From assembly GCA_019915015.1 (NCBI GenBank), contig JAHBBC010000006.1:310001-374000 (forward strand): a DNA stretch of 64,000 bases, read 5' to 3'. Position 1 is the first letter of the stretch, and every line of letters starts with the position of its first letter. The notes beneath the pieces were generated by a model, which saw nothing but the letters and a program-made list of their open reading frames with translations, did no database searches and was not told the DNA's origin. This DNA is from Auriscalpium vulgare. Its lineage: Eukaryota > Basidiomycota > Agaricomycetes > Russulales > Auriscalpiaceae. Positions 2,514 to 61,218 of the stretch are shown one piece after another. The position numbers and the translations under genes are program-made.

Positions 2514-4121
2514 TCAGTGACGTTTCCGTCTTTTACGACCTGCCTCGTTTCCCTCTGTCTGCTCGACTTCGCCACCATCTGCCAGTAGCGATACAGCCTT
2601 TGTGACGGCCTGCCTTCGCACCTTCTCAGGCACCTGCCCCCAATATATCTCTTCCTTCATGCCCTGCAGCAACTCCACCGTCATAGGCTTGTCTGAACGC
2701 GCACCCGTCGTGTCGAGCGCCTCAGATTGCGCTGTGGGATGACTTGCGAAATGTGATACCAGGTGCTGTGAGTGCGCAGGTGTCGCAAGACGCAAGTAGC
2801 ACTAGGAGCACGGTGTCAGCATATTACAAGGAATGTAGGCGTCTGACGTACTGTGTCGAGGCCCTTGGTGTAGTCCACGTAGTCGAGCCCGTCGGAAGCC
2901 GGACTAGCATGATTCCGAAAGGCGGCAGAAAACAGAGAACGGAGTGTGGTTTTGTTCGTCTCATGATGGACGTGGCGCACAAAGACGACGCAGTCGGGGG
3001 GATACGGCGCGGAGGCGGTCAGTGTTGACACTGTCGGGGGTTCCTGTCGCAAGCGCGATGGTTCAGGGATATGTACCGCCGCTGTAACTGATGGAGCCGC
3101 TCGAGACACGGGATGCGTCGACTCCGCCGCCTGAGCGAGGAGTTTCTGTCGATACGCGGCATACTCGTCCTGAAGCTGATCCCAGCGCGTCTTCGACAGT
3201 GTCCGCAGTCCCGACTTCGCGGCTTCTTGTGCCTCTTCCGAGGTGCTGATATTTTCGATGGTTGGAAGGTCCCATGGCCAGGCAGAGAGCAGCTGGTTGA
3301 CGTCGGTGACTTGGGAGAGCGTCACGAGAGCGAAGCCTTTGCACTTTGGAACATTGTTTGGCTCATCTTGAAAATGCGGAGGAAATAAGATGACCTGAAC
3401 GCGCCGCGAATCCGCGTGTCCGGTTGCACCATCTAGTAAGGTGCTAAGGAGGAGCGCGACGCCCGCTGTTGAGCGGTGCGACATCGGGATGTTCTCCTGG
3501 TCAATATAGTCAGCGACAGAACACGGATGAACAAGTCGTGACGCACAATATAAAGCATCCTCGACTGCCAGTACGCCCTTGTAAACCCCTCAAAGCGCTG
3601 GACGACTTCCTCCCAATCCCTGCGCCGGATCTCGTATCCACCTGCGCCACGGTCATGCCGACTCGGGCGCGCCACGTTGACAACAATTACGCGCACGTCG
3701 TACGCGTCGTTCGCATGAGGGCGAAGCGACTTTATCACGGCGGCCTCTGAGTAGTTTGTGCCTGCGAACGGTGCGGTACGCAGCAGCGCGCTGAGATGAA
3801 CAACTTGTATAACCATCAATCGAGTCCGAAAGGCGAGGAGTTGCGGCACTTACACCCTTCGCGGTTTGGATCGCGTAGACTGGGGTCGGTCCATAGCGCA
3901 TGTTCGGAGAGTGCGAGAGAGACGAGGAAGGCGGGGGCTTTGTCTGGGGTTGCATCCTGGCTGGATGTTTGGCGCGCGACGGAACTAGGAGGTGCAGGAT
4001 GAACAGCGTGTGGCCGCGAGCTACCCTCTGCTACCACCGTCGCGGGCACGGTTGGGCCTGCATTTCGCGAGCCGGTACTCTTTCCTTTCGCAACTGCTCG
4101 GGGAAGAAAGAATGTCGACAT
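2514..4121 (-). CDS. La-related protein 7-like RNA-binding protein (La module, RRM, xRRM)
   Basis: Four exons (4121-3854, 3803-3547, 3496-2852, 2801-2514), phases consistent, about 485 aa. Residues ~60-128 resemble a La motif (SEHALWTDPSLRDPN, then GFVHLSALL). RRM1 starts near 170 (RMLYIENIP), and a C-terminal RRM runs ~335-455 (CVVFVRHVH, LDYVDYTKGLDTCYLRL, YWGQVPEKVRRQAV), ending in a basic tail (GRKRRKRH). La, RRM and C-terminal xRRM in this order is the layout of LARP7/p65/Pof8 proteins, which bind U-tailed nuclear RNAs such as 7SK, telomerase RNA or U6. Nuclear location is expected from the basic tail. RNA partner inferred by family only. A fragment of this gene is found inside the mobile element at 32.1 kb. 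Confidence 0.82.
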
Positions 4122-6730: not shown

Positions 6731-6889
6731 GGACGTGATCTGTCTTCGCTTGCCCTGCTGACCGTAGTTGAGTTCATATATCTGCCTCAAGGTTCGATTG
6801 TATTTCATGCTTGAATTTGATGGACTGGCTACTGGCGCATGTTTCGAACGAACGGTAAATTTATATTCACCAAAGGCTAGAAAAGCAAA

Positions 6890-7054
6890 GGCGTAGCAGA
6901 AAGCGTGCTGATTAGGAACGTACAGTCCATGGCCTTCTGCGTGCAGGAGGAGGAGAGCGTGGCCTTCGACCTCGACATCGACCGCCTGTCGCGGTGCGAG
7001 CGGCCACGTTCGCCCCAACCAGGGAGCGGCCGTCTGTCCCACATCGCGATCGTG
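6890..7054 (-). pseudogene. Remnant of SAP18 3' end
   Basis: The minus strand reads a short Arg/Ser/Gly tail (NVAARTATGG, then SPPPARRR) matching the C-terminus of the complete SAP18 gene at 12750-13760. It marks the far end of the segmental duplication; the SAP18 core domain is absent. Confidence 0.75.
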
Positions 7055-17726: not shown

Positions 17727-20700
17727 TTATGCACCAATGTGAACAAATGGAACCCAGCGGTGCAAAGGAACATTCCGCCTTCTCATTTCCTTTGTGACAG
17801 CTTTCAGCACCTTAGCTGCATCCTTGAAGTCAACTGGCTTATCTTTGGGATGGAGAATTCTCCTGTAGAATTCATGCGCCAACAGAGGTCCATCCTCATC
17901 AGCCATTGCCCACAAGGTTCCTAAAATGCCTCTGAATCCACAAAATTGCATGCCAGCTGCAAGACTGATTCCTTCATCTGGAGTATTGTCTTTGTCAACA
18001 GCTGCAGTGTGACAGGCAGACAAAACAGCAAGCTCTGCATTGGGCAAATTGGCTCTTACAACATCTCGTATGGTAAACCTAGCATTGTCATGCAGCTCAA
18101 ATGATGAATTGAAAGGTTGGTCGGTATCAATATGCCCATGTGAAGCAAAATGAATCCAAGGGTATCTTGAAAGTCCCTCTAGCATAGTGCCATGAGTGAC
18201 TTTCTCTCCCATAAGTTCTTCAGTTTTACATCCTACTGTTTGCATGACCTCAACCTCCTCATATACTCTGTCTAGAGAGCTGGTGGCAATGGCAAGTACA
18301 TCAGGAGCCATTCCATCTACTCTTGCAACAACATCTTCCCTAGCTCTCATCAGTGAGCCAAGTGTTGGAGTATAGGAGGGAATGAATTTCTGTGAGAGTT
18401 GCTGTTGGGCGTGGGTGGGCACTTCAAAAGGCTGTGCAGCATGCAGAGGGAGTGTGCATAGTTTGCCTGATGGGCACCACCATATTCTAGAGCCTTTGCC
18501 AAATCCCAGGTCATCCAATTTCTTGAGAACAGGAAATGCAATACATATCCACAATTGTCTCAGTATGTGTTCAATCACTGCATCCTTACTGTAATCATCG
18601 AGGACTACTTGTCGGCTTTGGTGAGAGTCATTTACAAGGTATCCAAGTTTCAAGCTTTCTGACAGCATATTGATTGTTTCAAACACAGTGACATGTTTCA
18701 CATCAGGCAAGGGAACACAAATAGGATCAGAATCAACACAGTGAAGAATCAAAGCATCTGAGCGATAGCTTGCAAGATTGACAAGAATAACAGGGCCATT
18801 TGAAGCAACTTTAGCAATGCTTGAAAATTGTGGAGCTTTCAAGAATGTATCAAACCCATTCATGCTCTGTATTTTCTTGACAAGGTCATTCCACTGATTA
18901 TTCAATGCTCTCTTTGCTGCCCACTGCTTTTCTTCTAGCCGGTTTGGCATCAAATCCAATTCGGAGTATTTTGTGGTGAATTGATCTAGCTGCATCTTGA
19001 GATTCTCAAATTGCTCTGCAAGAGCGGCATCTTGAGTTCTCAATTGTTTGATTGGGGATCTGTATTCTTTCATCTTAGACCATAAGATTCCTCGACCTTG
19101 TTCCCACATCTGGACTGCTTCTTTGAGCTCTTCAATGTCAACTGCCCATGAGACTGCATTTGAAGTCAATGTAGAGGTGCTCTGAACAGTCTGGAAGAAT
19201 TTGTGCTGCAGGTCTAATGTTGGACGAATGATTAGGCACTGCTCAAGCAATCCTAAGGCCTTTTCATTTGCAGTCTTGGTACTCTGATGTTTGTGTTCAT
19301 GAGCATTGGTAGCCCATTCTAATGTAAATTTGAGTCTAGTGGTAGTGTCTGCATAAATATAGTCACTAGCCTGTTCAAATATCTCCCACACATTGTCGGA
19401 CTTGAATCTAGGATTTCCCACTACTAGTAGTAATCTAGCAAGGCCACCAAAGCTGTATATCTTCATTGGATGCCCTAAACTGAAGGTGTTGCATGCCTCC
19501 TTATACAATAAAAGGGCCTCCTCTAAATCTACCAATTCCCCCATTAGGTCAAAATGGGTACTCAACACATTTCCAAGATTGGTAAGGCTCAATGAGCGAT
19601 CAGGATGTCCTACTGGTCTCAAGATCAGTCCCTCTCTGTACAGTATAATGGCCTCCTTCAGATCTGGCAATTCACCCAGTTGTTTATAACGGGTACTCAA
19701 GGTGTTTCCAAGATTGTTGAGGCTTGATGAGCGATCAGGATGGCCTACTGGCCTCAAGCTCAGTGCCTCTCTGTGCAGTGCAATGGCCTCAGCCAGATCT
19801 GCCAATTCACCTGCTTGCTCAAAATGTGTCATCAAGATGATTGCAAGATTGTTGAGGCTTGATGAGCGATCAGGATGACCTTTCAGCATCAAGCTCAATG
19901 CCTCTCTATACAGTGTGATGACCTCCTCCAGATCTGCCACTTCATTGAGCTGGATAAAATGGGCGCTTAAGACAATTGCAAGATTGCTTAGGCTTGATGA
20001 GCGTTTAGGATGGCCTAGTGGCCTCAAGCTCAGTGCCTCTCTGTGTAGTGCAATGGCCTCCTCCAGATTTGCCAATTCACCCTGTTGCTCAAAATAGGTC
20101 ATCAAGACAATTGCAAGATTGTTGAGGCTTGATGAGCGATCAGGATGGCCCAGCGGTCTCAAGCTCAATGCCTGTCTGTGCAGTGTCATAGCCTCCTCTA
20201 GATCTGGCAATCCACCTAGTTTATTAAAATGGGTCCACAAGGCAGTTGCAAGATTGTCTAGGCTTGATGAGTGACCAGGATGGCCAACTGGCATCAAGCT
20301 GGATGTCTCTCTGTGCAGAGCAATGGCCTCCTCCAAGTCTTGCAATTCACCCAGTTGGCCAAAATGGGTACTTAAGGCATTTGCAAGATTGTTGAGGCTC
20401 AATGTACGATTAGGATGACCTAGTGGTGTCTTATGCAGTGCCTCTCTGTACAGTATTATGGCCTTGTCCAGATCTCCTAATTTACCCAATTGGTCAAATT
20501 GGGTCCGCAATGCACGTGCCAGATTGTTGAGGCTCAATGAGCGTTTAGGATGGCCTAGTGGCATCAAGCTCAGTGCCTCTTTGAGCACTGTGATGGCTTC
20601 CTCCAGAACTGGTAATTCACCCAGCTGGTTGAAATGAGTACACAAGGCATTTGCAAGATTGTTTAGGCTCAATGACCGATCAGGATGGCCTACTGGTCTC

Positions 20701-21560
20701 AAGCTCAGTACCTCTCTGTATAGTGCAATGGCCTCCTCCAAATCTGCTAATCTACCCAGTTGGTCAAAACAAGTACTCCAGGCATTTGCAAGATTGATCA
20801 GGCTCAGTGAGCGATTGGAATGACCTACTGGCATCAATCTTAGTGCCTCTCTGAGCAATGTGATGGCCTCCTCTAGATTTGAAACATCACCCAGTTGGAC
20901 AAAGCGGCTCCTCAAGGCATCTGCAAGATTGTTGAGGCCCAATGAGTGATCAGGATGGCCTACTGATCTCAAGCTCAGTGCCTCTCTGTGTAGTGTGATG
21001 GCCTCTTCCAGATCTGCCAATTTACCCAGTTGGTTGAAATGGGTACTCAAGGCATTTGCGAGATTGTTGAGGCTCGATGGCCGACTAGGATGGCCCACTG
21101 GCATCAAGCTGGATGTCTCTCTGTGCAATGTGATGGCATCCTCCAAGTCTTGCAATTCACCCAATTGGTCAAAATGTATACTCAAGGCAGCTGCAAGATT
21201 GTTGAGGCTCGATGAGCGCTCAGGATGGCCGGCTGGCCTCAAGCTTAGTGCCTCTCTGAGCAGTGTGATGGCCTCCTCCAGATCTGCTAATTTACCCTGT
21301 TGGTTGAAACGAGGTATCAAGACAATTGCAAGATTGTTGAGGCTCGATGAGCGCTCAGGATGGCCTGATAGCCTCAAGCTTAGTGCCTCTCTGTGCAGCA
21401 TGATGGCCTCCTCCAGATATGCCAATTCACCCATTTGGTCAAAATGGGTCCTCAAGACATTTGCAAGATTGTTGAGGCTCGATGAGCGATCGGGATGCCC
21501 TGGGTGTGTCAAAAACAGTGCATGTCTCTGCAGTGCAAGATCCTCTGCGAGGTCCACCAT
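17727..21560 (-). CDS. TPR-CHAT protein 1 (intact caspase-like CHAT protease)
   Basis: Single-exon coding region, 1277 aa. Residues ~1-660 are about 15 tandem TPR-like units of ~44 aa with core SLNNLANAL.THF.QLG and DLEEAI.LHREALSLRP.GHPDRS. A helical linker (WEQGRGILWSKMKEYR) follows, then a C-terminal CHAT domain. The caspase-type dyad is visible: His1141 in HFASHGHID and Cys1183 in LSACHTA. The domain ends LHRWVPFVHIGA. CHAT (caspase HetF associated with TPRs) proteins are cysteine peptidases, often effectors in conflict or cell-death pathways. The substrate here is unknown. The coding DNA is AT-richer than its neighbours and intronless, although the 5' leader holds a splice donor. The repeat units are very alike at DNA level, suggesting internal homogenisation. 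Confidence 0.93.
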   Translation of the reverse strand: MVDLAEDLALQRHALFLTHPGHPDRSSSLNNLANVLRTHFDQMGELAYLEEAIMLHREALSLRLSGHPERSSSLNNLAIVLIPRFNQQGKLADLEEAITLLREALSLRPAGHPERSSSLNNLAAALSIHFDQLGELQDLEDAITLHRETSSLMPVGHPSRPSSLNNLANALSTHFNQLGKLADLEEAITLHREALSLRSVGHPDHSLGLNNLADALRSRFVQLGDVSNLEEAITLLREALRLMPVGHSNRSLSLINLANAWSTCFDQLGRLADLEEAIALYREVLSLRPVGHPDRSLSLNNLANALCTHFNQLGELPVLEEAITVLKEALSLMPLGHPKRSLSLNNLARALRTQFDQLGKLGDLDKAIILYREALHKTPLGHPNRTLSLNNLANALSTHFGQLGELQDLEEAIALHRETSSLMPVGHPGHSSSLDNLATALWTHFNKLGGLPDLEEAMTLHRQALSLRPLGHPDRSSSLNNLAIVLMTYFEQQGELANLEEAIALHREALSLRPLGHPKRSSSLSNLAIVLSAHFIQLNEVADLEEVITLYREALSLMLKGHPDRSSSLNNLAIILMTHFEQAGELADLAEAIALHREALSLRPVGHPDRSSSLNNLGNTLSTRYKQLGELPDLKEAIILYREGLILRPVGHPDRSLSLTNLGNVLSTHFDLMGELVDLEEALLLYKEACNTFSLGHPMKIYSFGGLARLLLVVGNPRFKSDNVWEIFEQASDYIYADTTTRLKFTLEWATNAHEHKHQSTKTANEKALGLLEQCLIIRPTLDLQHKFFQTVQSTSTLTSNAVSWAVDIEELKEAVQMWEQGRGILWSKMKEYRSPIKQLRTQDAALAEQFENLKMQLDQFTTKYSELDLMPNRLEEKQWAAKRALNNQWNDLVKKIQSMNGFDTFLKAPQFSSIAKVASNGPVILVNLASYRSDALILHCVDSDPICVPLPDVKHVTVFETINMLSESLKLGYLVNDSHQSRQVVLDDYSKDAVIEHILRQLWICIAFPVLKKLDDLGFGKGSRIWWCPSGKLCTLPLHAAQPFEVPTHAQQQLSQKFIPSYTPTLGSLMRAREDVVARVDGMAPDVLAIATSSLDRVYEEVEVMQTVGCKTEELMGEKVTHGTMLEGLSRYPWIHFASHGHIDTDQPFNSSFELHDNARFTIRDVVRANLPNAELAVLSACHTAAVDKDNTPDEGISLAAGMQFCGFRGILGTLWAMADEDGPLLAHEFYRRILHPKDKPVDFKDAAKVLKAVTKEMRRRNVPLHRWVPFVHIGA

Positions 21561-27222: not shown

Positions 27223-27889
27223 CACTGCCAGCATGGGCAACTTTCTTGAGCGGAAAATGTTGAAAACCGGGTTGATCGCTGTTTAAAACTGTATTTAACA
27301 TTTTTCTTTCGAAAATAGGTTGGATAATATGTTATTTAATGTTCAAATATTGCACCAAATTATGGGTTGTATTATGTGCTAAATCCAGATTTGATTAAAG
27401 GTGAAATTTATTCAACAATATGTTTAACAATATTTTCAACACTGTTCACAAGCTTTTTTTCGTAAAGATTGGGTTAATGAAGGTCTAAATTTCTTTACCA
27501 CATGCCCCAGAAATAAAGGTTGAATACCAGGTTGAAAACCATTCAAATTTGTAACCAAAGATAGCCTAAATACAGCTTAAACTTTCCTAGAGATATTATT
27601 TAAACCTTCTGGCTGAGATATTCTTTACCTTTCTTGGCAGGAGATTCTTCAACTTTGTGGACCAAAGCAAAGTCAAAAAGTCTTTGATAGAAAAGGTCAA
27701 ACTTTTTGCAGTGAGATTCTATAACTTCGTACACCAAAGTAAATTAAAAATGACTTTGATAGAAAAGTTAAACTTTCTGCAGCAGCAATAGGCAGTAGAA
27801 AGTTAAAACAGTGTTCAACCAATATATAAGTACCCTTAGTGGACCAATTGGTGACCCAGTCAAGCCTGTTGGATGTCACTGTGCAAGAC

Positions 27890-28125
27890 AAATGGTTTGA
27901 CAAGCAAGATCTGACTTGCGGATGGTTGGACAGCAGAATGGCAAATGGAATGACAAGCAGAATGTGAATGGCAGATGGTGTGACAAGCAGAATGCAAATG
28001 GCTGATGGTGTGACAAGTACAATATGAATGGCTGATGGTGTGACAAGTAAAATGCAAATGGTTTGACAAGCAGAATGTGAACGGCAGATGGTGTGACAAG
28101 CAGGATGTCGATGGCGAAAGGTTTG
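27890..28125. repeat. Subterminal repeats of the element (left arm)
   Basis: Several copies of a ~36-bp unit containing ATGGTGTGACAAG or ATGGTTTGACAAGCAGAAT. The mirror set is at about 36285-36525. Such subterminal arrays bind transposase in plant CACTA elements; binding here is inferred. Confidence 0.7.
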
Positions 28126-28601
28126 ACAGCCAAGTTCCACGGTCGACAGTCACGGTCGACGGCTACGGTCCACGGTCGACGCCCACGGTCGACGGTCACG
28201 GTCGACGCCCATGGTCGACGCCCACGGTCGTCGTCGACGCCCATGGTCGACGGTCACGGTCGACGCCCATGGTCGACGGTCACGGTCGACGCCCATGGTC
28301 GACGGTCACGGTCGACGCCCATGGTCGACGCCCACGGTCGACGCCCACGGTCGACGCCCACGGTCGACGGCCACTGCTCATGGTTGACACTCAACGGGTA
28401 ACGGTCAACGGCTCCCGGCCCGCCATCTGCCAGTCAACGGCTCATGGTCCGCCATCCACCGTTCACCTTCCACCTTCCACCATCCACCGTCAACCACTCA
28501 CGCAACCGCTCACGGCTCACAGTCAACGGTCAACGGTCAACGGCCGACGGTTGACAGCTCACAGTCATGCCGTCCGCTGGTCGACAGCTCAGGGTCCGCC
28601 G

Positions 28602-35504: not shown

Positions 35505-37188
35505 TGAGCTGTCGACCGGCGGACGGCAGACCGTGAGCGTTCTACCGGTGGACGGCGGACCATGAGCTGTCTACCGGTGGACAGCAACCGTGAGCTATCG
35601 ACCGGCGGACCACGGACCACGAGCCGTTGACCGTTGACCGTTGACCGTTGACCGTTGACCGTTGACCGTTGACCGTTGACCGTTGACCGTTGACCGTTGA
35701 CCTTGAGCCGTGAGCGGTGGAGCGTGGGCTGTAAACTGTGGACCGTTGACCGTCAACCGTGAGCCGTGAGCCGTGGACGGTGGACGGTGGACGGTGGACG
35801 GTGGACGGTGGACGGTGGACGGTGGACGGTGGACGGTGGACGGTGGACGGTGGACGGTGGACGGTGGACGGTGGACGGTGGACGGTGGACGGTGGACGGT
35901 GGACGGTGGACGGTGGACGGTGGACGGTGGACGGCGGACCCTGAGCTGTCGACCAGCGGACGGCATGACTGTGAGCCGTCAACCGTCGGCCGTTGACCGT
36001 TGACCGTTGACTGTGAGCCGTGAGCGGTTGCGTGAGTGGTTGACGGTGGATGGTGGAAGGTGGAAGGTGAACGGTGGATGGCGGACCATGAGCCGTTGAC
36101 TGGCAGATGGCGGGCCGGGAGCCGTTGACCGTTACCCGTTGAGTGTCAACCATGAGCAGTGGCCGTCGACCGTGGGCGTCGACCATGGGCGTCGACCATG
36201 GGCGTCGACCGTGACCGTCGACCATGGGCGTCGACCGTGGACCGTAGCCGTCGACCGTGACTGTCGACCGTGGAACTTGGCTGTCAAACCTTTCGCCATC
36301 GACATCCTGCTTGTCACACCATCTGCCGTTCACATTCTGCTTGTCAAACCATTTGCATTTTACTTGTCACACCATCAGCCATTCATATTGTACTTGTCAC
36401 ACCATCAGCCATTTGCATTCTGCTTGTCACACCATCTGCCATTCACATTCTGCTTGTCATTCCATTTGCCATTCTGCTGTCCAACCATCCGCAAGTCAGA
36501 TCTTGCTTGTCAAACCATTTGTCTTGCAAGGTGACATCCGACAGGCTTGATTGGGTCACCAATTGGTCCACTAAGGGTACATATATATTGGTTGAACACT
36601 GTTTTGACTTTCTACTGCCTATTGCTGCTGCAGAAAGTTTAACTTTTCTATCAAAGTCATTTTTAATTTACTTTGGTGTACGAAGTTATAGAATCTCACT
36701 GCAAAAAGTTTGACCTTTTCTATCAAAGACTTTTTGACTTTGCTTTGGTCCACAAAGTTGAAGAATCTCCTGCCAAGAAAGGTAAAGAATATCTCAGCCA
36801 GAAGGTTTAAATAATATCTCTAGGAAAGTTTAAGCTGTATTTAGACTATCTTTGGTTAGAAATTTAAATGGTTTTCAACCTGGTATTCAACCTTTATTTC
36901 TGGGGCATGTGGTAAAGAAATTTAGACCTTCATTAACCCAATTTTACGAAAAAAAAGCTTGTTAACAGTGTTGAAAATATTGTTAAACATATTGTTGAAT
37001 ACATTTCACCTTTAATCAAATCTGGATTTAGCACATAATACAACCCATAATTTGGTGCAATATTTGAACATTAAATAACATATCATCCAACCTATTTCCG
37101 AAAAAGAAAATGTTAAATACAGTTTTAAACAGCGATCAACCTGGTTTTCAACATTTTCCGCTCAAGAAAGTTGCCCATGCTGGCAGTG
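35505..37188. repeat. Right terminal inverted repeat
   Basis: Inverse of 27223-29095, including the shorter heptamer array (35775-35936), GTCGAC block (36160-36270), subterminal repeats and AT-rich outer part. Ends exactly at CAGTG before the CTT duplication. Confidence 0.85.
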
Positions 37189-37191: not shown

Positions 37192-40100
37192 GCAGAAGCT
37201 TTGAAAGCCCACTTTGATCAAATAGGCACACTTGCAAGTCTGGAGGAGGCAATTACACTGTATAGAGAGGCACTGGCCTCAGCATCACCAGGGCAAACTG
37301 ATCTGGCAGACATTATGAACAATCTTGCATGTGTTTTATTGGCTCACTTCAATCAGACAGGTACAAAAACAGACCTCGAAGAAGCTATTGCACTACACAG
37401 GAAGGCACTCATGTTGAGACCATCTGGGCATGCTGATCACCCAATGAGCCTGAGCAATCTTGCCAATGCTTTATCCGTCTCTTTCAACCAAAACAGCACA
37501 ATGCCAGATCTGGAGGAGGCAATCACACTACATAGAGAGGCACTAACATTGAGACCATCTGAACATCCTGATTACTCTATACATGTGAACAACCTTGCAA
37601 CTGTTTTGATAACCCACTTTAATCAGATGGGCACAATATCAGACTTAGAGGAAGCTATCAGATTGCACAGAATGGTACTTATCCTGAGACCATCTGGCCA
37701 TCCCAGCCGCTCAATAAGTGTAATAAATCTTGGAGGTGCTTTGATGGCACATTTCAATCAGATGGGCATCATCTCAGATCTGGAGGACGCAATTTCATTG
37801 TATAGGGAGACACTTGCCTTGATGTCATCTCAGAATGCCAATTACTCAATGGCCTTGAACAATCTTGCAAGCGCTTTGTGGATCCATTTTAATCAGAGAG
37901 GCACAATGTCACATTTGAAGGAAGCAATTACACTCCATAGGGAAGCACTCAGCTTGAGGCCTTTTGGGCATCCTTATCGTCCAATGAGTTTGACAAATCT
38001 TGCAAATGCCTTGTGGGGCCATTTCAATCAGATTGGTATAATGTCAGATCTGGAGGAGGCTCTCCTACTACATAGAGAGGCACTCAGCTTAACCCCGGCT
38101 GGACATTCACATTGCTCACAAACCCTGACCTATCTTGCAAACACTTTATGGACCTATTTTAATCAGATGCCAGACAGGACATCTGATTTAGAAGAAGCTA
38201 TTGAGCTATACAGAGAGGCCCTCACCTTGTCATTATCTGAACATCCTGATCGCCCAAAGAACTTGTCTAACCTTGCAGGTGCCTTGCAGACCCACTTTCT
38301 TCACATGGGAACAATGTCACATTTGGAGGAGTCAATCAAGTTATATCGAGAGGTGCTCACATATGTACCATCTGGGCATCCTGATCGCTCCATGAATCTG
38401 AATAATCTTGCATGTGCTTTGGTTGCTTACCATGAATGGATAAATACAATACGTAATCTGGAAGAAGCCGTTGCACTGCATAGAGAGGCACTCACCCTAA
38501 GACCATCTGGACACCATGAGCGTTCTATGAGTCTGACAAATCTTGCCAGGGCTCTAACAACACATGTTGAGCAGACAGGCACAGAAAAATATTTGATAGA
38601 GGCAATCTCGTTGTATATGGAGGCAAACAAGTTGTACAGCATGGGAAGCCCAGACAAAATAGAGTGCTTGTATAGCCTTGCAAAATCACTGATCATTCGA
38701 GACTCCAGATTTGGACATGGTACTATCTCTGATGAAGCATGGAAAGTATTTGAAGATGCTAGTGACTATAGCTTTGCAGATACACTGAAGAGATTGAATA
38801 TTACCTTGGAATGGGCAAGTATTGCTCGCCATCATAGAGACCCAACCACTATGACTGCTTATCAGAAAGCATTAGTGCTATTTGAACAGTGCTTGATTAT
38901 ACGCCCAACACCAGAACTGCAGCATCGCTTTCTTCAGACTATTGATGACAGAGCATTGATGTTACCTTCAGATGCTGTATCATGGGCCATTGAGGTTGAT
39001 CGTCTTAAAGAAGCAGCTCAGCTATGGGAACAGGGCAGAAGAATATTGTGGTCTAAGATGAAAGACTACAGATTCCCAATCACTCAATTGAAGTTTCTTG
39101 ACTCAGCTCTCGCTGAGCAGTTTGAAACAGTTACACAGCAATTAGATCAATTGACCACAAGATCTTTTGAATTCCAATCTGTTGGTACTTATGTAATGGA
39201 AAATCAATGGCCGATAAAGAGACAGCTGACTAGTAGGTGGAATGAGATAGTCAAAGAGATACAAGATATACCTGGGTTTGAGACATTTCTCAGTGCTCAA
39301 CCATATTCAAGTATCTCAAAAGCTTCAGCAGATGGCCCTGTCATTCTTGTCAATATTTCTGCCCAGCGCTCAGATGCATTGATACTTTACCAGGTGGATT
39401 CTTTGCCAATTCTTGTGTCCTTGTTAGACAGCCCTAACAAGACAGTGCATGACATAGTCAATGAATTGGCATATATATTGAGGCCTGAGAGTGTACACCA
39501 AGATTCTGCAAAGGAGCATCAACCATATGACAATACTATCCTGGATCAAAATATTGAGAAAGTTCTAACAAATTTGTGGAAGTATATAGTGCATCCTATT
39601 ATGAAAAGGATAGATGAGTTAGGTATATCCAAAGGTTCCAGAATATGGTGGTGCCCATTAGGAAAATTGTGCACCCTCCCTCTTCATGCTGCACAGCCGT
39701 TTGGCAAACATACAGATCCTGAGCAGCAACTCTCACAGAAATATATTCATTCATACACTCCATCCCTGCAATCACTTATAACAGCCAGAGAAAATATATC
39801 TTCAAGGGAGCTAGAGACTCCTCCCCAGATACTTGCACTTGCAACCAGCTCGCTCAAAAAGGTCTACAATGAGATTGATGAAATTGAGGCTGTCAGTGGT
39901 AATACTAAGAAACTGATTGGAGAGATGGTGACTTATCATACAATGATAGAGAACCTTCCAAAGTTTGACTGGATTCATTTTGCCTCTCATGGTCATATAG
40001 ATTCAAAAAAGCCATTTAACTCCTCATTTGAGCTACATAACAAGACAAAGTTCACTATACTAGACCTTCTTGCAACCAATTTGCCCAATGCTGAGCTGGC

Positions 40101-40401
40101 TGTGCTCTCTGCATGTCACACCGCAGCTGTTGACAAAGATAACACTCCTGATGAAGGCATCAGCCTTGCAGCTGGCATGCTGTTCTGTGGTTTCAGAGGT
40201 ATTGTTGGGACATTGTGGGCAATGGATGATGAGGATGGCCCTCTGTTGGCCAAAGAGTTTTATTCCAGAATTCTACATCCCAAAAATAAACCAGTTGACT
40301 TCAAGGATGCAGCCAAGGTCCTTAAAGCTGTAACAAAGGAGATGAGAAGGCAGGATGTTCCATTGCACCGCTGGGTTGCATTTGTTCATATTGGTGCATG
40401 A
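37192..40401 (+). pseudogene. TPR-CHAT locus 2, 3' part with complete CHAT domain
   Basis: 1,069 codons continuing the frame cut at 27222. About 12 more TPR-like units (AEALKAHFDQIGTLASLEEA, LSNLANALSVSFNQ) are followed by the linker (LWEQGRRILWSKMKDYRF) and an intact-looking CHAT domain: His codon 39988-39990 in HFASHGHID, Cys codon 40114-40116 in LSACHTA, ending LHRWVAFVHIGA. Without the insertion the protein would be about 1,333 aa. No stops or frameshifts outside the insertion were found, so loss of function looks recent. A GTGAGTAT donor-like motif follows the stop. Transcription from inside the element could in principle give a 5'-truncated CHAT protein. Confidence 0.9.
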
Positions 40402-47906: not shown

Positions 47907-50900
47907 ATGGCAGACCAAGACAACTTGATCAGACTCTATCGAATGTCATTGAATGTCAGAGAAGAGTCAGACCATGACTATGCAGTGTTTGCAGAGAAAC
48001 TGATGATTGCTCTGATGATTCGGTCTGATCAAATGAATGATATAGATCTAAATGAGGCTATCACCCTTGGGAAGGCATTAGTAAGGTTAACACCATCAAA
48101 CAGTTGGACCCATCGTGTCAACCTTGCAACAACCCTGAGGTACTCTCAACTCTTAAAACTAAGCAACATATCAGAGCTGGAGGAGGCTATCTCACTGCTC
48201 AGAAGTGCTCTACATATCATGCCAAATGATGATCCTCGTTGGCTATATGTTGTGACTAGCCTTGCAGATGCTTCACAGACACGATTTCTTGCACTGGGCA
48301 CAATATCAGATCTGAATGATACAATTACACTGCTCAAAGAGGTATTTAAACAATATGGGAATCCAGGGCATTTGGACAACATGGATGGTCTTGCAATAGC
48401 TTTGAAGTATCGCTTTGAAAAAACTGGAGCACTGTTAGATTTAACAGAGGCCATATCAGTCCAGAGACAAGCTTTGAATTTGACATCAAAAGAGGATATC
48501 CATTATTCAAACAGGTTGCACAATGTTTCTGTCTTATTGTATGTCCAAGTTGAACAGCTAGGCAACATCTCAATTATTGAAGAGGCTATTTTACTCAATG
48601 AAGAGGATCTAAGGTTAAGACCTTTCAAAAATGATATTAACTCAAAAACTCAAGACAACCTTGCAAACATGCTGCTGATGTGCTTCGAAAATCAGGCACA
48701 ATGGCTAATCTAGAGAAAGCCATTCAACTACATCAAGAGGCTGTAGAGCTTACACCAATCGAACATCCTCTCTGTTCAACAAGGCGGCATAATCTTGCCG
48801 GTTCTTTGACTGCTCATTTCTATGAGCGAGGCAATATGTCTGATTTGGAGACAGCTATGTCCTTAACAAGAGATGCTATTAGGTTATCACCACAGGCATG
48901 GGAAGAAGAACCTACTAGTAGACGCTTTAAAATCAGTATCAAAAATCTTGCAAGTATATTGAGCATGCGTTTCCATGAGCTAGACACAATGTCAAATTTA
49001 GAGGAGGCAATCTCTCTATACAAGGGGCTATTGGACATGGACCCAGTAGAGAAACCTGACCATGTTATTCTGGGCAACCTGGCAGGTGACTTGCATACCC
49101 GATATCAACACAAAGGAGACCTGTCTGATCTGAATGAGGCAGTCTTACTTCAAAGACAAGCCCTCAGCTTAATAGTCCCAGGACACTTACATTACTTACA
49201 TTTTGAGAAACAGCTTGGTAATCTATTGAGATACAGATTCAAAGACTTAGGCAGAGAGTTAGATCTTGAAGAATCTATTTTGCATCTCACAAATGTAGCA
49301 AAAAGTACACCATCTAGTCATCCCCATTATAGCAAGAACCTGACTGACCTTGCAAAAGCATTGGATACTCGCTTAAAAACACTGAACACCAAACATGATT
49401 TAGTGCACATTATTGTATTACTTCAAGCAGCATGCAACTCTTTCAGTTTGGGGCATCCAGAGAAAATAAATAGCCTTTACCTTCTTGCAACATCACTGTA
49501 TCAATTTGAGCAAACCTTTCATCCTACAGGTATTTCTGATAACACATGGACTATATTTAAGTATATCAGTGTGTATGAATATGCCAGTCCAAGAGACAGA
49601 CTTGGGTACACAATAGACTGGGCGGTGGTGTCCCGTCTTTACAAGCATCAGTTTACTAGTTTTGCCTATCACAAAGCACTGAACTTACTGGAGAGGTGTC
49701 TGGTGATACGGCCAACACTAGAACTACAACACAGTTTTTTCCAGAGTCTTGGCACTTCTAGACATACCTTGGCCAGGGATAGTGTGTCATGGGCTATATG
49801 ATTGAAAATGGTAAATTAGATGAGGCAGTTGAATTGTGGGAACAAGGCAGAGGAATATTGTGGGCAAAAATGAAAGACTACAGACTTCCAATTGAGAAAC
49901 TCAAACTGCACAATGAGATTCTTGCTAAAGAATTTGAGATTACTACTCATCAGTTGAATCAAATGACCACTATTGAACCTCCATCAATTACTACACAATA
50001 TCAGCGAGAGAAACCATGGGAAATGAAGAGAAAGCTAATTGATAAGTGGAGCAAAAATATCAAAGAAATTCAAAGCCTAGAGGGCTTCAAAACATTTTTG
50101 AAACCTCTGCCATTCTCCACATTGTCCAAGGTTGCTCTCGAAGGTCCTGTAATTGTAGTGAATATCTCTGACTATCACTCTGACACACTCATATTACATC
50201 GCTGTGAATATAGTCCTGATCTTGTGCCTTTGCCAGATACAAATAAAGGCCAGACAGTGCATGACATGATTGATGAATTAGCAAAAATGTTAAAGTTTGG
50301 GGAACATATGCAGAGCTCTAACAAACAGCAGTCATATGATGGTGCCAGTATGGATGAGACTCTTATAAAGGTACTCAAACACTTATGGGAGTTTATTGTC
50401 TATCCTATCCTAAAGAAAGTAGAGGAGCTGGGATTTCCAAAGGGTTCTAGAATATGGTGGTGTCCATCAGGGCAATTATGCACCCTTCCTCTTCATGCAG
50501 CACAGCCATTTCAAGGGCCTACAGACCCCCAGCAACAGCTCTCACAGAAATTTGTTTCTTCTTATACTCCTACACTTAGCTCACTTATCAGAGCAAGAGA
50601 AGGTATTCTTATACGGAAGAAAGAAACCACACCCACAATTCTTGCCACTGCAGCTAGCACACTGCCAAGAGTCTATGATGAGATTGAAGTCATAGAAGCT
50701 GTTGGAGAAAATGTCAAGACACTTCTCGGAAGTGAGGTTACTCACAATGCCATGATGGAGAATCTTCCAAAATTTGATTGGATTCATTTTGCTTCACATG
50801 GCCATGTAGATTCAGAGAAGCCTTTCAACTCATCATTTGAACTGCATGATAATGTACAGTTGACTGTTCAAGACCTCCTCAAGGCTAATTTGCCTAATGC

Positions 50901-51210
50901 TGAGCTGGCTGTCCTCTCTGCCTGTCACACTGCAGCCGTGGACAAAGACAATACTCCTGATGAAGGGATCAGTCTTGCATCCGGCATGCAATTCTGTGGA
51001 TTCAGGGGTATTGTTGGCACCCTATGGGCAATGGCTGATGACGACGGCCCTTTGTTGGCCCAGGAATTCTACATAAGAATCCTTCAACCCAAAAACAAAC
51101 CAGTTGACTTCAAGGATGCAGCCAGGGTTCTGAAAGCTGTGACAAAGGAAATGAGGAAGCAGAATGTTCCACTGCACCGCTGGGTTCCTTTTGTTCATAT
51201 TGGTGCTTGA
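47907..51210 (+). pseudogene. TPR-CHAT locus 3, two frameshifts
   Basis: The first frame (47907-48713) encodes TPR-like units and stops at TAG. The homologous sequence continues one base out of frame from about 48680 (CFE... versus RKSGTMANLEKAI), so a single-base change lies in 48680-48692. The second frame ends at TGA 49799-49801, within SWAI. Comparison with loci 1 and 2 shows an apparent 4-base insertion there, and the third frame continues ENGKLDEAVELWEQGRGILW to the end. The CHAT domain keeps its His (codon 50797-50799, SHGHVD) and Cys (50923-50925, LSACHTA) and ends LHRWVPFVHIGA. Either sequence errors or true decay; two independent breaks favour decay. Start ATG 47907 follows a leader with a splice donor. 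Confidence 0.85.
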
Positions 51211-51531: not shown

Positions 51532-53924
51532 TCATGAGTTCTTATCGACACTGTGACTGCCCCTCTCCCCGCCCAAAACACCCTCCGCGCCGTACACCAC
51601 CTCGCGCCGCTCCTCAGCCCAGCGCACCGCCGCCCTCCGCCCGCTCGTCACGTCCACGCCGAACCAGATCACGATACTTGCGGAGACGCACAGCGCAAAG
51701 AGGAATGGGAAGCCCTTCCAGTTGTCCCCCGTGTTGTCGATGATGGCTTGGATGACGTTCGGCCCGATCATCGAGGAGGCGCGGTTGGACAAGCCGAAGA
51801 GGCCGAAGAACTGACATGGTCAGTATGCAGGCATGAAGTGGGTGGGGAGGGGCGCGCACCATGTTGTCGTAGCCCGGAGGAGTCAGCTCGGCCATCATTG
51901 TCTGCGAGAAAGCATAGTACGGCGCTTGGAACAGGCCGAACACGACGTTATACGCCCTGCGCTACCGTCAGCTTACATCGTCCCATCACCTAGACACACG
52001 CAACACGCACCAGAACTCCCATCGGTTGTGGAAGCTGCGTGTTGTCTGTCAGTCGAGATCGCTAGGTATACAGGTTGGTGGGACGCACCCGAGCTTGTTG
52101 GTCCAGATCCCTACCATGCCCCACAGAGGGATCATAATGGTGACGACGTTCGTCACGACAAACTACCAAGCGATGAGCACCAGCACGTCTGGACACACGA
52201 GCGCGTAGGCGTACCATCTTCTTCGTGCTTATCTTCCAGTACCTTTGAATGTACCAGAAACCCAGCGTGCTGCAGGCGCGTCAGCGCACGGATCAACAGA
52301 ACGAGAGTAGGCAGAGAGAGCCGACGCACCTCGCGGTTGATGTGAACGCCTGCGCGAGACCGAGGTACGTGTTCTGCAGGAACGAAAAGCTGAATTTGTC
52401 GTTCTGGCAGATCGACACGAGCGTGCCGGTGGTGTTTAGTCCCTGAGTTCGTCCATCAAAAGCATATCCAACCAGTAAGGAGAAGTGAAGGACATACATC
52501 GGCGAGGAGGAAGAATGCGACGAGATACGTGAACGTGTACGGGAGCTTCTTGTACTGCTTGAGCGCTACCCATATCTATGCGCACCAGAAGTGAGCAATG
52601 GTCGCTGAGGATGATATAGCAAACCTACTTGTTTCCAGCCAATGGTGAGATAGCTCTCGCCCTTGGGAAGCTTCGGTCCGGGTCGTGGCTGCTGGTAGAT
52701 GACTGCGAACGCGCCAATCAGCCTTTGTGTGCACAAGTCGAGCAAGCAACAAATACGCACACCACCAGATGCCCGTGAGCACCCAATAACCATTCGTCCT
52801 GCACGCGAGAGCCATAAGTATCGGACAAAACAAGGTATGAAAATAAAAGTACGCACAAAACGAGCACATAGTTGTTGACCTTCGGGTTATTGGCAAGCGG
52901 GAGCAGCAGCGACAAATTCAGCGCCAGCGTCATGATGTATCCAATATTACTGTGAGTCTATACAAGCTCAGATAAGCTCCCCGGAACGGCACGTCGCTGA
53001 GAGCGATCACGCACCGTGCTGATGTTACTGATGCGGTTCTTCTCCAGGCTCTCCTCCTGCTCGTACACCTCGGCAGATATCTCGCCCGCGTCGTAGCGCG
53101 CCTTGAGGTCGCGGGAGTGCTGCGTGTTGCGGGCGAGACGCGGGAAGAGGGCGGCGTAGAAGACGAGCGTCGCGCCGTACGAGACGAAGCCGACTATGTA
53201 AAGCCCCATAGCGAGGCCCCAGCGCGATGGTGCTGGAAGGACCGTCAGTAAAGCAACATGGACGCCCCGGGATAGACACTAACTTGTTAGGCTCATGCTG
53301 GCGAACTGCGCTGCCCAGCATATCACGGTGACGACGAGCAATAGCCAGCGCCCGAACGTGCCGTAGTCCGCCGCCGACCCGATCGTCGTGAAGATCGTCG
53401 TCATGACCTACGGGCAGCAATCAGCCACCTTCCCCAATCGTCAAACGTGCAGAGGAACGTACGGCGAAGCTCACGCCCGTCGCGACGAGCACCACGGACG
53501 ACACGGACTTGGTGCCGCCAGCCCACGGCACGACGCACCTGCCCGACGCGTCCGCGTCGAGGCACGACGACCCGGGCCCGCGCACGGGGTCGTAGCCTGC
53601 GGAGGTCGCAAGGGACTGGAAGAGCGTCATCGAGTAGCCCAGCGGGCCGACGCCCTGTCCAAGCACCGCCAATCAGCTGCGGCTCACATATTACTTACAA
53701 GACTTACGTTGTCGCCATTGTAGTACACTGAAATCGCTTCAGTCGTGTGGCAGAAACGTGAAGGCGGTAAACGCACAGTAGTAGCTCCATAGCTCGCGGC
53801 GTGTGACGACGGGCTCGTCAGGCCGCACGGGCGCCGTCACCGGGATCTCTCTCCCGCGCACGTCGACCTCCACATCGTCGCCCTTCTTGTCATCTTGCGG
53901 CGAGCTAGTGCGCGACATTGACAT
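51532..53924 (-). CDS. Atg22-like vacuolar/MFS transporter
   Basis: Fifteen exons with consistent phase: 53924-53777, 53727-53708, 53654-53463, 53407-53284, 53232-53015, 52957-52857, 52798-52761, 52702-52629, 52575-52498, 52442-52330, 52269-52215, 52162-52089, 52034-52011, 51956-51860, 51810-51532; 544 aa. Atg22-type MFS features: RRELWSYYLYYNGDNGVGPLG near the first helix, TTIGSAADYGTFGRWLLL, a charged cytosolic loop (EVYEQEESLEKNRISNIST), SNIGYIMTLALNLSLLLPL, and GYDNMFFGLFGLSNRASSMI late. About 11-12 membrane helices. Atg22 effluxes amino acids from the vacuole after autophagy. Exons 2 and 13 are 20 and 24 bp. Two in-frame starts (53924, 53918). Its 5' end is duplicated at 58.4 kb. Confidence 0.86.
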
Positions 53925-55277
53925 GGCGGATAAGAACGGAGAAAATGCTCGGCGCGCGAAACATGCCTGAAGTTCGAGATATACGAGGAATGAGAGGGGA
54001 ATGAAAGGACCCTGTGACTTCGCGGGCCGCATGGTGGTGCGGCTTCGAATCCAAGAAGCCACGCGCCAATGGGCCCAGTGAGGCTCAAACAGGGACCCAT
54101 CGACGCGGTAAAGGCGCAGGCGCGTTGCGATAAAGAGGCTGGATAGAGGGCCACGGCCTGCACCAGGTATCAGGCGTGCCAGGGATATCGCATTGCGCTG
54201 GCAGTGGCGACGTGCAGTGGGAAGGGCCGTACGTGCTACCACAGGCCGCGCAACAGGCTAAGAAACGACGCCTGGACGCAGCGAAGTACTGGATCCATGA
54301 CGGAAGGATGGGTTCGACTCCGTGTCTGAGTGCGCGATGGCGGAACGGCGGCAGGCCGGCGCTTAGGTCAGACGCTGGTTTGCTGCCGGCACCGCACGGT
54401 CCGGGTCCCGGCGGATCCCGCCGCTGCGTTACTGGGCGGCACGTCAGGCATGGACATCTCGCTCCCAAGTTCTTCCAGCTACTAACTTAGTGGCTCGTTC
54501 AAACTCGAGATGCCCATACCGGAAGGGCACGCATGCATTTGGCATGTGCGCATCACCAGGCAATCACCAGGTGCGCTCCGTGGCGACGCGTCGTATATCG
54601 TTACTCAGCCATCGGAATCCCACATCTCGACATATCGTCCGGTACGGGCTATCCAGGTCGCTATAGTCTAATGTGTGGTGATGTGGCGATTACCATTGCC
54701 GTAGCCCTACAGTACTGCAAGACCGCCTTCAAGTTGGTATCGCCGCCGCCGGCCTAGCGCAGCTCGCCGTACATTTTTCATCAGGCCGCTCGGTACGTCG
54801 TTGTGCACCTTGGCCGCAAGCTTTTGCGCTGACGATGCCGGCATGGCTGCCATCCCAGAATATGCAAACGGCTCCGCGCTGCGCCCTGGACCGTGGACGC
54901 GACATCATAACAAGGACCGTCGGTTACACATGGCTCGGAAACACAACTCTGGTGGTACACAACTCTGGTGGTATCTAGTTTCGTAGAGAAAAAACTTTGC
55001 ACCAAGACGTCGACCTCCTAGTTCCTACTACAGTTTCCCTTCACTATCAAACTCTATCCGTCTGAAAAGCTCAACGGTCGTCGTCTGTCAAATACTCGAG
55101 CGATGCATCATCTGTGTCTGCCTACATTCTCGGCAACCTGTGCCACCGCCCCATCTCTTCTTGCTCACTCGGATCGGACACCACTAGTACTCGCTTGAGC
55201 CGCTTCTGGACCCGTCCTGCGTGCGGACTGGTTCTGTTGTACACAGATCTCAGCATCTCCTGTCGGGGACATTACTG
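53925..55277. other. Intergenic, Atg22 upstream region
   Basis: 53925-54312 is shared with the duplicate at 58570-59043. No gene recognised in the rest. Confidence 0.4.
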
Positions 55278-58375: not shown

Positions 58376-59043
58376 CACTGGAATCGCGTCAGTCCGGTGA
58401 AAGATAGTATGTGGAGGCTCACTGGCCATAGCTCGCGGCGCGTGACGACGGGCTCGTCAGGCCGCACGGGCGCCGTCACCGGGATCTCTCTCCCGCGCAC
58501 GTCACCGACCTCGACATCGTCGCCCTTCTTGTCATCTTGCGGCGAGCTCGTGCGCGACATGGACGTGGTGGATAAGAATGAAGAAAATGCTCGGCGCGCG
58601 AAGCATACCTGGAGTTCGAGATATACGAGGAATGCGAGGGCCCTGTGACTTCGCGAAGACAGATCGACTATCATCTGTCAAAGTCAGCTACGGAGACTAA
58701 CTTCGCGGGCCGCATGGTGGCTTCGAATCCAAGAAGCCTCGCGCCAAATGGGACCAGTGAGGCTTAAACAGGGACCCATCGACACGATAAAGGCACAGGC
58801 GCGGGGGTGCCGGTGGCGGTGAAGACTCAGAAGAGGCTAGATTGAGGGCGATGGCCTGCACTAGGTGCGTATCAAGCGTGCCACCCGGGATATCGCATTG
58901 CCACGCTGGCAGTGGCAACGTGGGATATGGAACGCCATATGTTCTGACACAGGCCGCGCAGCACTCTACGAGATACGAAGTCTGGACACATAACTAGTAC
59001 TTATCCGAGTCGATAGAGAAAGGACCATGATGGAAGGATGGAA
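58376..59043 (-). pseudogene. Duplicated 5' end of the Atg22-like gene
   Basis: Matches 53726-54312: upstream region, start (SRTSSPQDDKKGDDVEV), first exon with one extra codon (VGDVRGREIPV versus VDVRGREIPV), and the REL W segment. After that the frame degrades and no membrane-domain exons follow. It carries the promoter side, so a short transcript is possible, but no transporter can be made. Confidence 0.8.
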
Positions 59044-59234: not shown

Positions 59235-61218
59235 CTAAGCAGGCCAGAGCACCTCAGACATAATAACAGAGAAGAACAGTAGTGGCACGCACCAGGTCGT
59301 GGAACTGGCTTGGCAAAAATTGTAAATGTTTACCATCTCCTTTTGCCCTGGACTGTCCACCACCATGGCCTCAACCGCAGCGGACAACGCCTCGGGGGTA
59401 GCTTTGTGTGCAATCGTGTTCCCAAAAAAACGCACGCTATACTCCCAGGTGGAATGGATCGTGCGGAGTTCTGTGCCGGAGAGGAACTCCTTGTCCTCGG
59501 TCGAGAGCTGTGCGTATAAGTCTGCAATCAGGCTTTCAAAGGGTTGGCTGTAGTTGACTGTGTACTTCCGCCGAAGCAGCTTTTTGGCCTTGTCAAGGAT
59601 AATGCGCCTGTGGATGGCCTGGAGATCGCCCAGGTGCTGTGCAGAGATTGAGCAGCTATAATGACTGCCTGGATCTCTACGTACCTTTTCATGATCTGTG
59701 GCTAGCGCGTCGTGCTGCCAGACAAATATCCATGGTCAACAGCAGCCCCGCAGTCAAAAGGCAGCGACCGACCTCCGTCTTGAGCACGTCGTGCTGCCAG
59801 ACAAATATCCATGGTCAACAGCAGCTCCGCAGTCAAAAGGCAGCGACCGACCTCCGTCTTGAGCACGTCGTGCTGCCAGATGGATATCCATAATCAATAG
59901 CAGCCCCGCAGTCAAAAGGCAGCGACCGACCTTGGCGTTGAGCGCGTCGTACTGCAAGAATGGATACATGGTCAACCGCAGTCACACATTCGAAAGGCAG
60001 ACAGACCTTGATGTTGAGCGCGTCGTGCTGCCAGACGAATATCCACGGTCAATAGCAGCTCCGCAGTCAAAAGGCAGCGACAGACCTCCGTCTTGAGCAC
60101 GTCGTGCTGCCAGACAAATATCCATGGTCAACAGCAGCCCCGCAGTCAAAAGGCAGCGACCGACCTCCGTCTTGAGCACGTCGTGCTGCCAGACAAATAT
60201 CCATGGTCAACAGCAGCTCCGCAGTCAAAAGGCAGCGACCGACCTCCGTCTTGAGCACGTCGTGCTGCCAGATGGATATCCATAATCAATAGCAGCTCCG
60301 CAGTCAAAAGGCAGCGACAGACCTCCGTCTTGAGCACGTCGTACTGCAAAAATGAATCCATGGTCAACCGCAGTCACACATTCGAAAGGCAGACAGACCT
60401 TGATGTTGACGGTAGATATCTTATCTTGCAGCTGGGGAAAGTGAGTAAACTGAAGCACGGTGAGCAGGAGATTGGGTCCTCACCTCATTCATCTGCTTGT
60501 AGATGTTTTCTATGCTACTTTCCTGCGGCGTGGATGATGGGCCAGGGGACGCGGACTCGAAGCGCTCGTTCTGCACGACGTCGCGCTGCGACACCTGAGT
60601 AAGGGGCGTCGTGGCGCCCGAGTCCAGGGTGACATCCCCGGGCCCTTTCTTGCCCTTCTTCTTCTTCGGCTTCTTGGACTTGGCTGTGGCAGCACTGCAT
60701 GAGCAAGGATTCACGATAACGGAGAGGCCACACACGCACTCGTGTTGGCAGCATCAGAACTGATCAGGGCATTGTAGGAGAGATTGCGAATGTTCTCCTT
60801 CTGCTGGCGAATGACCTCTTTGAACAGCGTTGATTGGTTGCCTGCGTTCATCTTGAAGACGACGAGGTAATCGAAAGGGTCGGTGGGCACAGCGAACGAC
60901 TCGCCGAACGTGGGAGTAGCTGACTCAGGGGCGCTGATTCGGAGAGGTTCAACGCCTGTGGTGCGCGGGCGGTGAGCACTGAACTACAACCTCTGCGGTA
61001 CACCTCAACGTACGCATGTAGTACCGCGGTTCACTGAAGTAGTCTCCAATGGCCCCGTCAGTGTCGCCGAGGACTGAGTCAATGTTGGCCACTTGAGCGA
61101 GCTGGCGGCGGATCGCCTTGCCAATGCGGATGCGGGCGTCTTCCGTACTGGTGTGGTCTGGGATGTCGATTGCGATCAGGCCCGAATCCTCTGGCAGGAT
61201 GGCGTTCACCAGTGGCAT
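59235..61218 (-). CDS. Unrecognised protein with a coiled coil built from tandem heptad micro-exons
   Basis: Fourteen exons, phases consistent, 422 aa: 61218-61014, 60955-60736, 60694-60484, 60431-60399, eight 21-bp exons between 60343 and 59773, 59714-59685, 59636-59235. The N-terminal part (MPLVNAILPEDSGLIAID, ARIRIGKAIRRQLAQV, DPFDYLVVFKMNAGNQSTLF) and the C-terminal helical part (HLGDLQAIHRRIILDKAKKLL, then RTIHSTWEYSVRFFGNTIAH) match no family I know. Between them are a Lys-rich stretch (KKPKKKKGKKG) and ENIYKQMNE leading into heptads. Each micro-exon is exactly seven codons (five are HDVLKTE), so splicing extends a putative coiled coil one turn-pair at a time. The C-terminal end (stop at 59235) may miss a last intron. 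Confidence 0.72.
59685..60343 (-). repeat. Tandem 79-bp exon-intron repeat array
   Basis: On the minus strand each unit is CTGGCAG acceptor, a 21-bp exon (CACGACGTGCTCAAGACGGAG type), then a GTCGGT/GTCTGT donor and a 58-bp intron with a TTGACC branch-like site. Exons: 60343-60323, 60264-60244, 60185-60165, 60106-60086, 60027-60007, 59951-59931, 59872-59852, 59793-59773, and a longer last one 59714-59685. One spacing is 76 bp (55-bp intron, also found before the first unit). 79 is not divisible by 3, so unspliced reading cannot continue across units. Confidence 0.85.

Follow-up and report, generated by a model that had tools for sequence, protein, structure and literature searches.

Coiled-coil heptads encoded by an array of predicted 21-nt micro-exons in a gene of Auriscalpium vulgare

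Introduction

Can a coding array gain or lose whole heptads of coiled coil when its repeat unit, at 79 bp, is not a multiple of three? This question is raised by a locus of the fungus Auriscalpium vulgare in a 64,000-nt stretch of contig JAHBBC010000006.1 (assembly GCA_019915015.1, positions 310,001 to 374,000), hereafter the window. An earlier note, made from the letters of this stretch, had proposed a row of 21-bp exons, each coding one heptad and each duplicated together with its intron. Here, we analysed the array within the window, its paralogues in the 51.6-Mb genome and its relatives among deposited proteins.

Results

A predicted gene of 14 coding exons

The gene was predicted on the minus strand, from an ATG at 61218 to a stop at or before 59235, with coding exons of 205, 216, 200, 33, eight times 21, 30 and approximately 340–400 nt separated by introns of 48–58 nt (Table 1). 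The spliced frame is open from this ATG into the last exon, with 417 codons up to the first stop. A possible donor (GTGCGT) after 59293 in the last exon would lead to an immediate stop if used, and otherwise the frame ends at 59235; this optional last intron is a by-eye reading against the paralogue L007. Read unspliced from the 33-nt through the 30-nt exon, the array contains 5, 7 and 9 stops in its three frames, which rules out the array as an unspliced coding repeat. The window probably contains a genuine fungal gene, rich in introns, in which predicted heptad micro-exons would encode the central coiled coil. Immediately 3' of the gene lies one copy (58426-58990) of a dispersed repeat, the other copy of which is at 53787-54280 (76.7% identity over 570 columns, 93% over 215 bp).

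Table 1. Predicted features of the gene, in window positions
Feature	Position	Strand	Description
Exon 1	61014..61218	-	205 nt, begins with ATG; N-terminal domain
Exon 2	60740..60955	-	216 nt, entered in phase 1
Exon 3	60484..60683	-	200 nt; basic and Ser/Pro-rich linker; exits in phase 0
33-nt exon	60399..60431	-	LQDKISTVNIK, 11 residues; coiled coil begins here
Array of eight 21-nt phase-0 heptad exons	59773..60343	-	introns of 58 nt and 55 nt
392-bp higher-order repeat, copy 1	60007..60398	-	55-nt intron, then five exons with the intervening introns
30-nt exon	59685..59714	-	HDALATDHEK; closes the array
Last coding exon	59235..59636	-	helical C-terminal domain with RxxGNxxAH motif

The repeated unit is an exon with its intron

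The first bases of the eight 21-nt exons are at 60343, 60264, 60185, 60106, 60027, 59951, 59872 and 59793, and the encoded heptads are, in order, YDVLKTE, HDVLKTE (three times), HDALNIK, YDALNAK and HDVLKTE (twice). Like the 33-nt and 30-nt exons on either side, all are in phase 0 with AG before and GT after the exon, and the coordinates and counts of the earlier note proved correct. The array introns measure 55, 58, 58, 58, 58, 55, 58, 58 and 58 nt, followed by one of 48 nt past the 30-nt exon, and Tandem Repeats Finder returned a period of 79 bp (8.8 copies, score 957), which bears out both the intron lengths and the unit that the note had described. Its claim that exon and intron are duplicated together, one heptad being gained in frame per unit, also held.

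A larger repeat of 392 bp, comprising five exons and five introns, is present in two copies with 92.5% identity across the first 320 bp, and exon variants and intron variants follow one another in largely the same order in both. Both 55-nt introns are preceded by an exon ending in ...NIK and followed by a Tyr exon. The Tyr-heptad pattern that had been noticed is thus present; what had been taken as the restart of a run of His heptads is better described as duplication of this five-exon block. Since a 392-bp block present twice would fit both the Tyr heptads and the mixture of 76- and 79-bp units, duplication seems to have acted at two scales. Neither 79 nor 392 is divisible by three; only the exon content is. 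In contrast to the 79-bp heptad unit, a 135-bp repeat (45 codons, 14.7 copies) at 19515-21501 of the window, TPR-like by eye only, has a period that is a multiple of three.

Nucleotide diversity within the array was higher in the exons (pi 0.126) than in the 58-nt introns (0.076), and every codon difference among the eight 21-nt exons changes the residue. Nothing within the array pointed to purifying selection. The excess variation of the exons may reflect exchange with the end of the 33-nt exon (both carry ...NIK), relaxed constraint or diversification. That the array exons are no more conserved than the introns also speaks for a different reading, in which the array is a minisatellite within one large intron or within a dying gene, the 21-nt exons are skipped relics and splicing would lead from the 33-nt exon (or exon 3) directly to the last exons. 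However, all eight exons have kept their length, phase, borders and register.

One heptad register runs through the array

A single heptad register runs from the 33-nt exon through all eight heptads into the 30-nt exon; position d is Leu in nine consecutive heptads (first 13 d positions: L V L L L L L L L L L H I), and the exons do encode a coiled-coil-like sequence, as had been claimed. Position a is mostly His or Tyr, which is unusual for a coiled coil, while e is mostly Lys or Asn and g mostly Glu or Lys. Over the first 90 residues, I, L, V, M or F occupied 15 of 26 a/d positions compared with 10 of 64 others, the best of the seven offsets. The Pfam family HALZ matched at 41.2 bits (cut-off 28.1), and the coiled-coil call is based on this match and the register count.

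The gene has paralogues with their own micro-exon arrays

Using the window C-terminal exon as query, we found the paralogue L007 on contig C2 (34% identity). The match between the two C-terminal domains covered 104 query residues (E 1.3e-12), or 109 query residues in a second search (E 1.9e-12); the N-terminal domain of the window protein matched that of the family weakly (37% over 38 residues, E 0.058). L007 shares the plan of the window gene and carries a separate row of 21-nt exons, among them IDELKTK and IDALKTK, and L038, about 41 kb away, is an inverted duplicate of it with approximately 99% identity. Common to the window gene and these two loci are a 205-nt exon 1, the successive phases 1, 1 and 0, a 33-nt exon and then 21-nt exons. 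Exon 2 of L007 measures 234 nt and has the same phase as in the window, and exon 3 of L007 and L038 measures 158 nt, entered in phase 1 and left in phase 0. The 33-nt exon is found at the equivalent place in L007, L038 and a further locus, L039.

L038 appeared by eye to lack the C-domain, and the search reported no C-domain match there; L039 appeared decayed by eye: its KK-rich exon contains a stop, and its array exons are irregular. Some family members therefore look like pseudogenes, and this decay again favours reading the 21-nt exons as skipped relics. Against that reading, the arrays of the paralogues hold to 21 nt while their intron lengths drift.

A related C-domain was also found in L048 on contig C13 (35% to L007, E 2.4e-7), where the coil is one uninterrupted exon containing a 21-bp in-exon duplication (L048 3694-3734). 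L048 and its deposited counterpart P0002 are tied to the window gene via L007; the window protein itself matched P0002 weakly (20%, E 0.055), and no match was reported on C13 with the window C-domain as genome query. Searching the genome for the heptad-exon pattern with at most 3 mismatches gave 42 matches, compared with 17 for the reversed control. These comprised 10 matches in L007, 9 in L038, 8 in the window, 2 in L039 and 13 elsewhere, the last being single matches with 3 mismatches (one with 2). One of the 13, L040 on C1, is an unrelated gene by eye, and L049 on C18 (C-domain E 0.17) showed by eye nothing of the family. By sequence similarity, the window gene is a member of a small predicted family of five.

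Paralogue arrays differ despite near-identical flanks

Both L007 and L038 have 19 exons from the 33-nt through a 51-nt exon; between these two lie 12 exons of 21 nt and 5 of 12 nt in L007, and 13 of 21 nt and 4 of 12 nt in L038, such that every array exon measures 12, 21, 33 or 51 nt. Of their introns, 35 of 36 are 51–87 nt long and fall into all three classes modulo three, whereas the exons fall into one class only. The single long intron, 504 nt in L007, has a 64-nt counterpart in L038. Each 87-nt intron resembles a fusion of two introns, as if the 12-nt exon between them had been lost. Some 21-nt exons of the paralogues are poor as heptads (SDRDRRA, IDGHKAK).

The upstream flank and 5' part of the gene are 99.04% identical between L007 and L038 over 2083 bp (17 mismatches), yet the two arrays differ in the number and order of their units. 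The recent change in unit number proposed in the earlier note is thus supported in the paralogues only. Over exons 1–3 (594 coding nt), L007 and L038 differ by one codon indel and 4 substitutions, all non-synonymous, numbers that do not suffice to test for selection. Exon-intron blocks recur in the L007 array too, with periods of 108, 146 and 254 bp. A module at L007 2101-2278 (NDALQTK/IDALEEK/SDRDRRA) recurs at 2988-3165 as IDELKTK/IDAVEEK/SDRDGRA with equal intron lengths of 64 and 51 nt, a second kind of multi-exon block duplication.

In an intron tree, the array introns of the window formed one cluster apart from those of L007 and L038 (local support 0.934), within which the 58-nt introns grouped together (support 0.956). 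When the nine 55- and 58-nt introns were compared with the L007 and L038 introns, 0 of 200 shuffles reached the score for seven of them and 2 of 200 for the other two. The intron after the 30-nt exon had no similarity to paralogue introns (196 of 200 shuffles were as good) and sits inside the window cluster on a long branch. Because the introns resemble those of the paralogues and yet cluster by paralogue, a common ancestry of the array introns is probable, with units multiplied or homogenised in each paralogue separately.

The near-identity of the window introns would also fit introner-like copies of one intron inserted at the same point of pre-existing heptad repeats, as would the uninterrupted coil of L048, with its 21-bp in-exon duplication and its seven-residue gap relative to P0002. 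This origin is very unlikely in our view, however, since exon and intron variants travel together in the window (in the context of the 55-nt introns and in the 392-bp block) and since the L007 array, too, repeats as exon-intron blocks. L048 and P0002 are 94% identical, with one gap of exactly seven residues inside the uninterrupted coil exon. Together with the differing arrays, this gap indicates that coil length shifts by whole heptads both with and without introns.

A deposited protein agrees with the predicted junctions of a paralogue

Deposited-protein matches were taken at E 0.001. At this threshold, the window protein had no fungal relative or orthologue among the deposited proteins searched, the sole match being a pipefish protein over 41% of the query. 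In searches with the coil masked with X, an alignment of three of the genes matched P0002 among the 7992 scored candidates sharing most words, and the L007 protein matched P0003 (FA95DRAFT_1610267). P0002 and P0003, the two deposited fungal relatives recovered, both belong to Auriscalpium vulgare (Russulales). The peptide of the 51-nt exon was left unmasked in the query that found P0003, and the 440-residue L007 model omits four of its five 12-nt exons (NAKE was kept), while the scoring of arrays against P0003 used all 19 exons. Because the coil was masked from the 33-nt to the last 21-nt exon, P0003 offers a fair test of that part.

Across four predicted junctions of L038, P0003 reads LEARFESFQAE-QGRK-INELETK-HGLE-INGLTAK with no gap. 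The results showed that 26 of these 33 residues equal the joined L038 exons of 33, 12, 21, 12 and 21 nt, QGRK and HGLE being peptides of 12-nt exons. The L038 array peptide scored 258 against the P0003 coil and 190 when the 12-nt exons were left out, and none of 500 random exon orders reached 258. For L007, the corresponding scores were 211 and 199, and 11 of 500 random orders scored as high. Apart from the end, the gaps in the alignment of L038 with P0003 measure 4, 7 and 7 residues. The stretch formed by SDRDGRA, NAKE and the 51-nt exon matched P0003 without gaps at only 9 of 28 residues. P0003 agrees with the predicted splicing across junctions in the paralogue L038, and we infer that the window gene is spliced as predicted. 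The P0003 coil contains the heptads and the 4-residue pieces expected of 12-nt exons, which counts further against skipped relics, and we regard an array lying unused in an intron or a dying gene as quite unlikely.

The AlphaFold2 model of P0003 contains long helices at residues 181-234 and 240-344, and the stretch equivalent to the micro-exons falls within them. Block pLDDT was 67-88 at residues 191-290, in a model that is poor as a whole (mean 51.8). We take an elongated coiled-coil oligomer to be the most likely form of the protein.

The C-terminal domain is possibly HEPN-like

Of five models of the C-domain, the best (pLDDT 69.9, pTM 0.70) showed five helices; pLDDT was 40-47 in the remaining ones. 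DUF4145 matched two of three C-domains (two of four in a second set) at 13.0 and 13.8 bits, below its cut-off of 23.1. The C-domain profile had no match at E 10 among PDB sequences, and Foldseek with the C-domain model returned no significant fold; several chains among the weak structure matches belong to HEPN proteins. RxxGNxxAH was present in all four aligned C-domains, with RRDGIKAAH in P0002 instead. The HEPN motif is Rx4-6H, from which the spacing of RxxGNxxAH differs. Since the DUF4145, motif and structure matches all fall below threshold, HEPN stays a lead, and the C-domain is possibly HEPN-like. Pfam yielded no assignment for the N-domain. Of the whole protein, the coil alone is clearly assigned. 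A crinkler-like or ubiquitin-like N-domain, suggested by the P0003 model, was rejected: Pfam gave it no support and the model is poor in this domain. On the best reading, the coil would be a length-variable spacer between the N-domain and the possibly HEPN-like C-domain.

Discussion

A frame- and register-neutral unit

We propose that unequal exchange or slippage may gain or lose 79-bp exon-intron units or 392-bp blocks. Because each micro-exon is in phase 0 and is one structural repeat, the length of the coil changes by whole heptads; frame and a/d register would be preserved, and the unit itself need not be a multiple of three. Such frame- and register-neutral gain and loss would let copy number drift or be selected. 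The arrays probably expanded or were homogenised separately in different paralogues and still changed after a recent gene duplication. The coil would be a rod, or a spacer, whose length can evolve and which could also oligomerise the end domains.

Coiled coils absorb steps of 4, 7 and 11 residues (stutter, heptad and hendecad), and from the 33-nt exon on the micro-exons of L007 and L038 encode 11, 7 and 4 residues. A 12-nt exon would add four residues as a stutter and, with a heptad, make an 11-residue step. The closing exons fall outside this rule, with 17 residues in L007 and L038 and 10 in the window. A bolder proposal, which we consider unlikely, is that exon sizes set a coiled-coil arithmetic in which gain, loss or skipping of units adjusts rod length in quanta, and that strain-variable rods might act as self/non-self or partner-length matching elements in this fungal family of rapid turnover, whose end domain may be HEPN-like.

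The arrays might alternatively serve alternative splicing, in which 12- and 21-nt exons are skipped or included to give a ladder of coil lengths within one cell. Any skipped subset would keep the frame, and multiples of 21 nt would keep the register as well. Retention of any of the nine introns between the 33-nt and 30-nt exons leads to a stop within 28–83 codons, and such stops would separate skipped from retained products. However, intron definition is compatible with constitutive splicing of micro-exons between short introns, and the short introns and micro-exons found here fit it. We therefore hold a splicing ladder to be possible and somewhat doubtful; the reading that we prefer is heritable gain and loss of whole units.

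Relation to known arrays of small exons

Fibrillar collagen genes provide a case in which exon length (54 bp) is a multiple of the structural repeat of the protein. Collagen arrays encode the Gly-X-Y triple helix and are ancient and fixed, whereas the fungal arrays are near-identical, recent and heptad-based. Tandemly repeated 81-base exons were reportedly described in S. mansoni transcripts by Davis et al. in 1988; this case is likewise a tandem array of small exons and differs in its 81-base unit.

The micro-exon genes (MEGs) of Schistosoma also have many tiny exons, mostly multiples of three, and are difficult for automatic annotation; their exons are mostly 15 bp and their introns 100 to almost 5000 bp long (PMC10526429). 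MEG proteins are secreted. Unlike MEGs, the fungal arrays have 21-nt exons of one heptad each and introns of 48–87 nt, with exon and intron repeated together; the comparison covers gene architecture only. The words 'coiled' and 'symmetric' are absent from the main text of that paper (PMC10526429). Aphid bicycle and megacycle genes likewise carry many micro-exons of one phase, almost all phase 2, and megacycle was enlarged through tandem duplications within the gene that have intron positions in common; the parts of the source that we drew on describe no rule of one structural repeat per exon (PMC9168663). Here, too, the comparison concerns architecture.

Micro-exon genes and tandemly repeated exons are thus already known, while the coding of each heptad by a separate exon seems to be new: heptad-per-exon arrays were not reported in the literature searched, which covered titles and the beginnings of abstracts among the matches listed, with subscription papers mostly outside it. 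An array with one exon per heptad is a clean natural case in which the unit of splicing, the unit of duplication and the unit of structure coincide. It makes testable how protein length can be gained without damage to the frame, whether exon boundaries guide the evolution of repeat proteins, how a short-intron spliceosome handles serial exons of 12–21 nt and whether coil length varies among strains. A further suggestion is that annotation may overlook genes of this kind or model them wrongly.

Other repeats in the window

Several further repeats were recorded in the window. A large inverted repeat (27223-28257 and 36159-37188) is 97.4% identical over about 1 kb and encloses, at 28.3-36.3 kb, inverted minisatellite blocks with 7-bp units such as GTGGACG/TCCACGG; the region resembles a palindromic, minisatellite-rich structure. 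Two direct repeats were also present, a duplication of about 2.1 kb at 4909-7021 and 10747-12843 (91.8% identity) and one of about 0.8 kb at 39574-40401 and 50383-51210 (77.8% identity).
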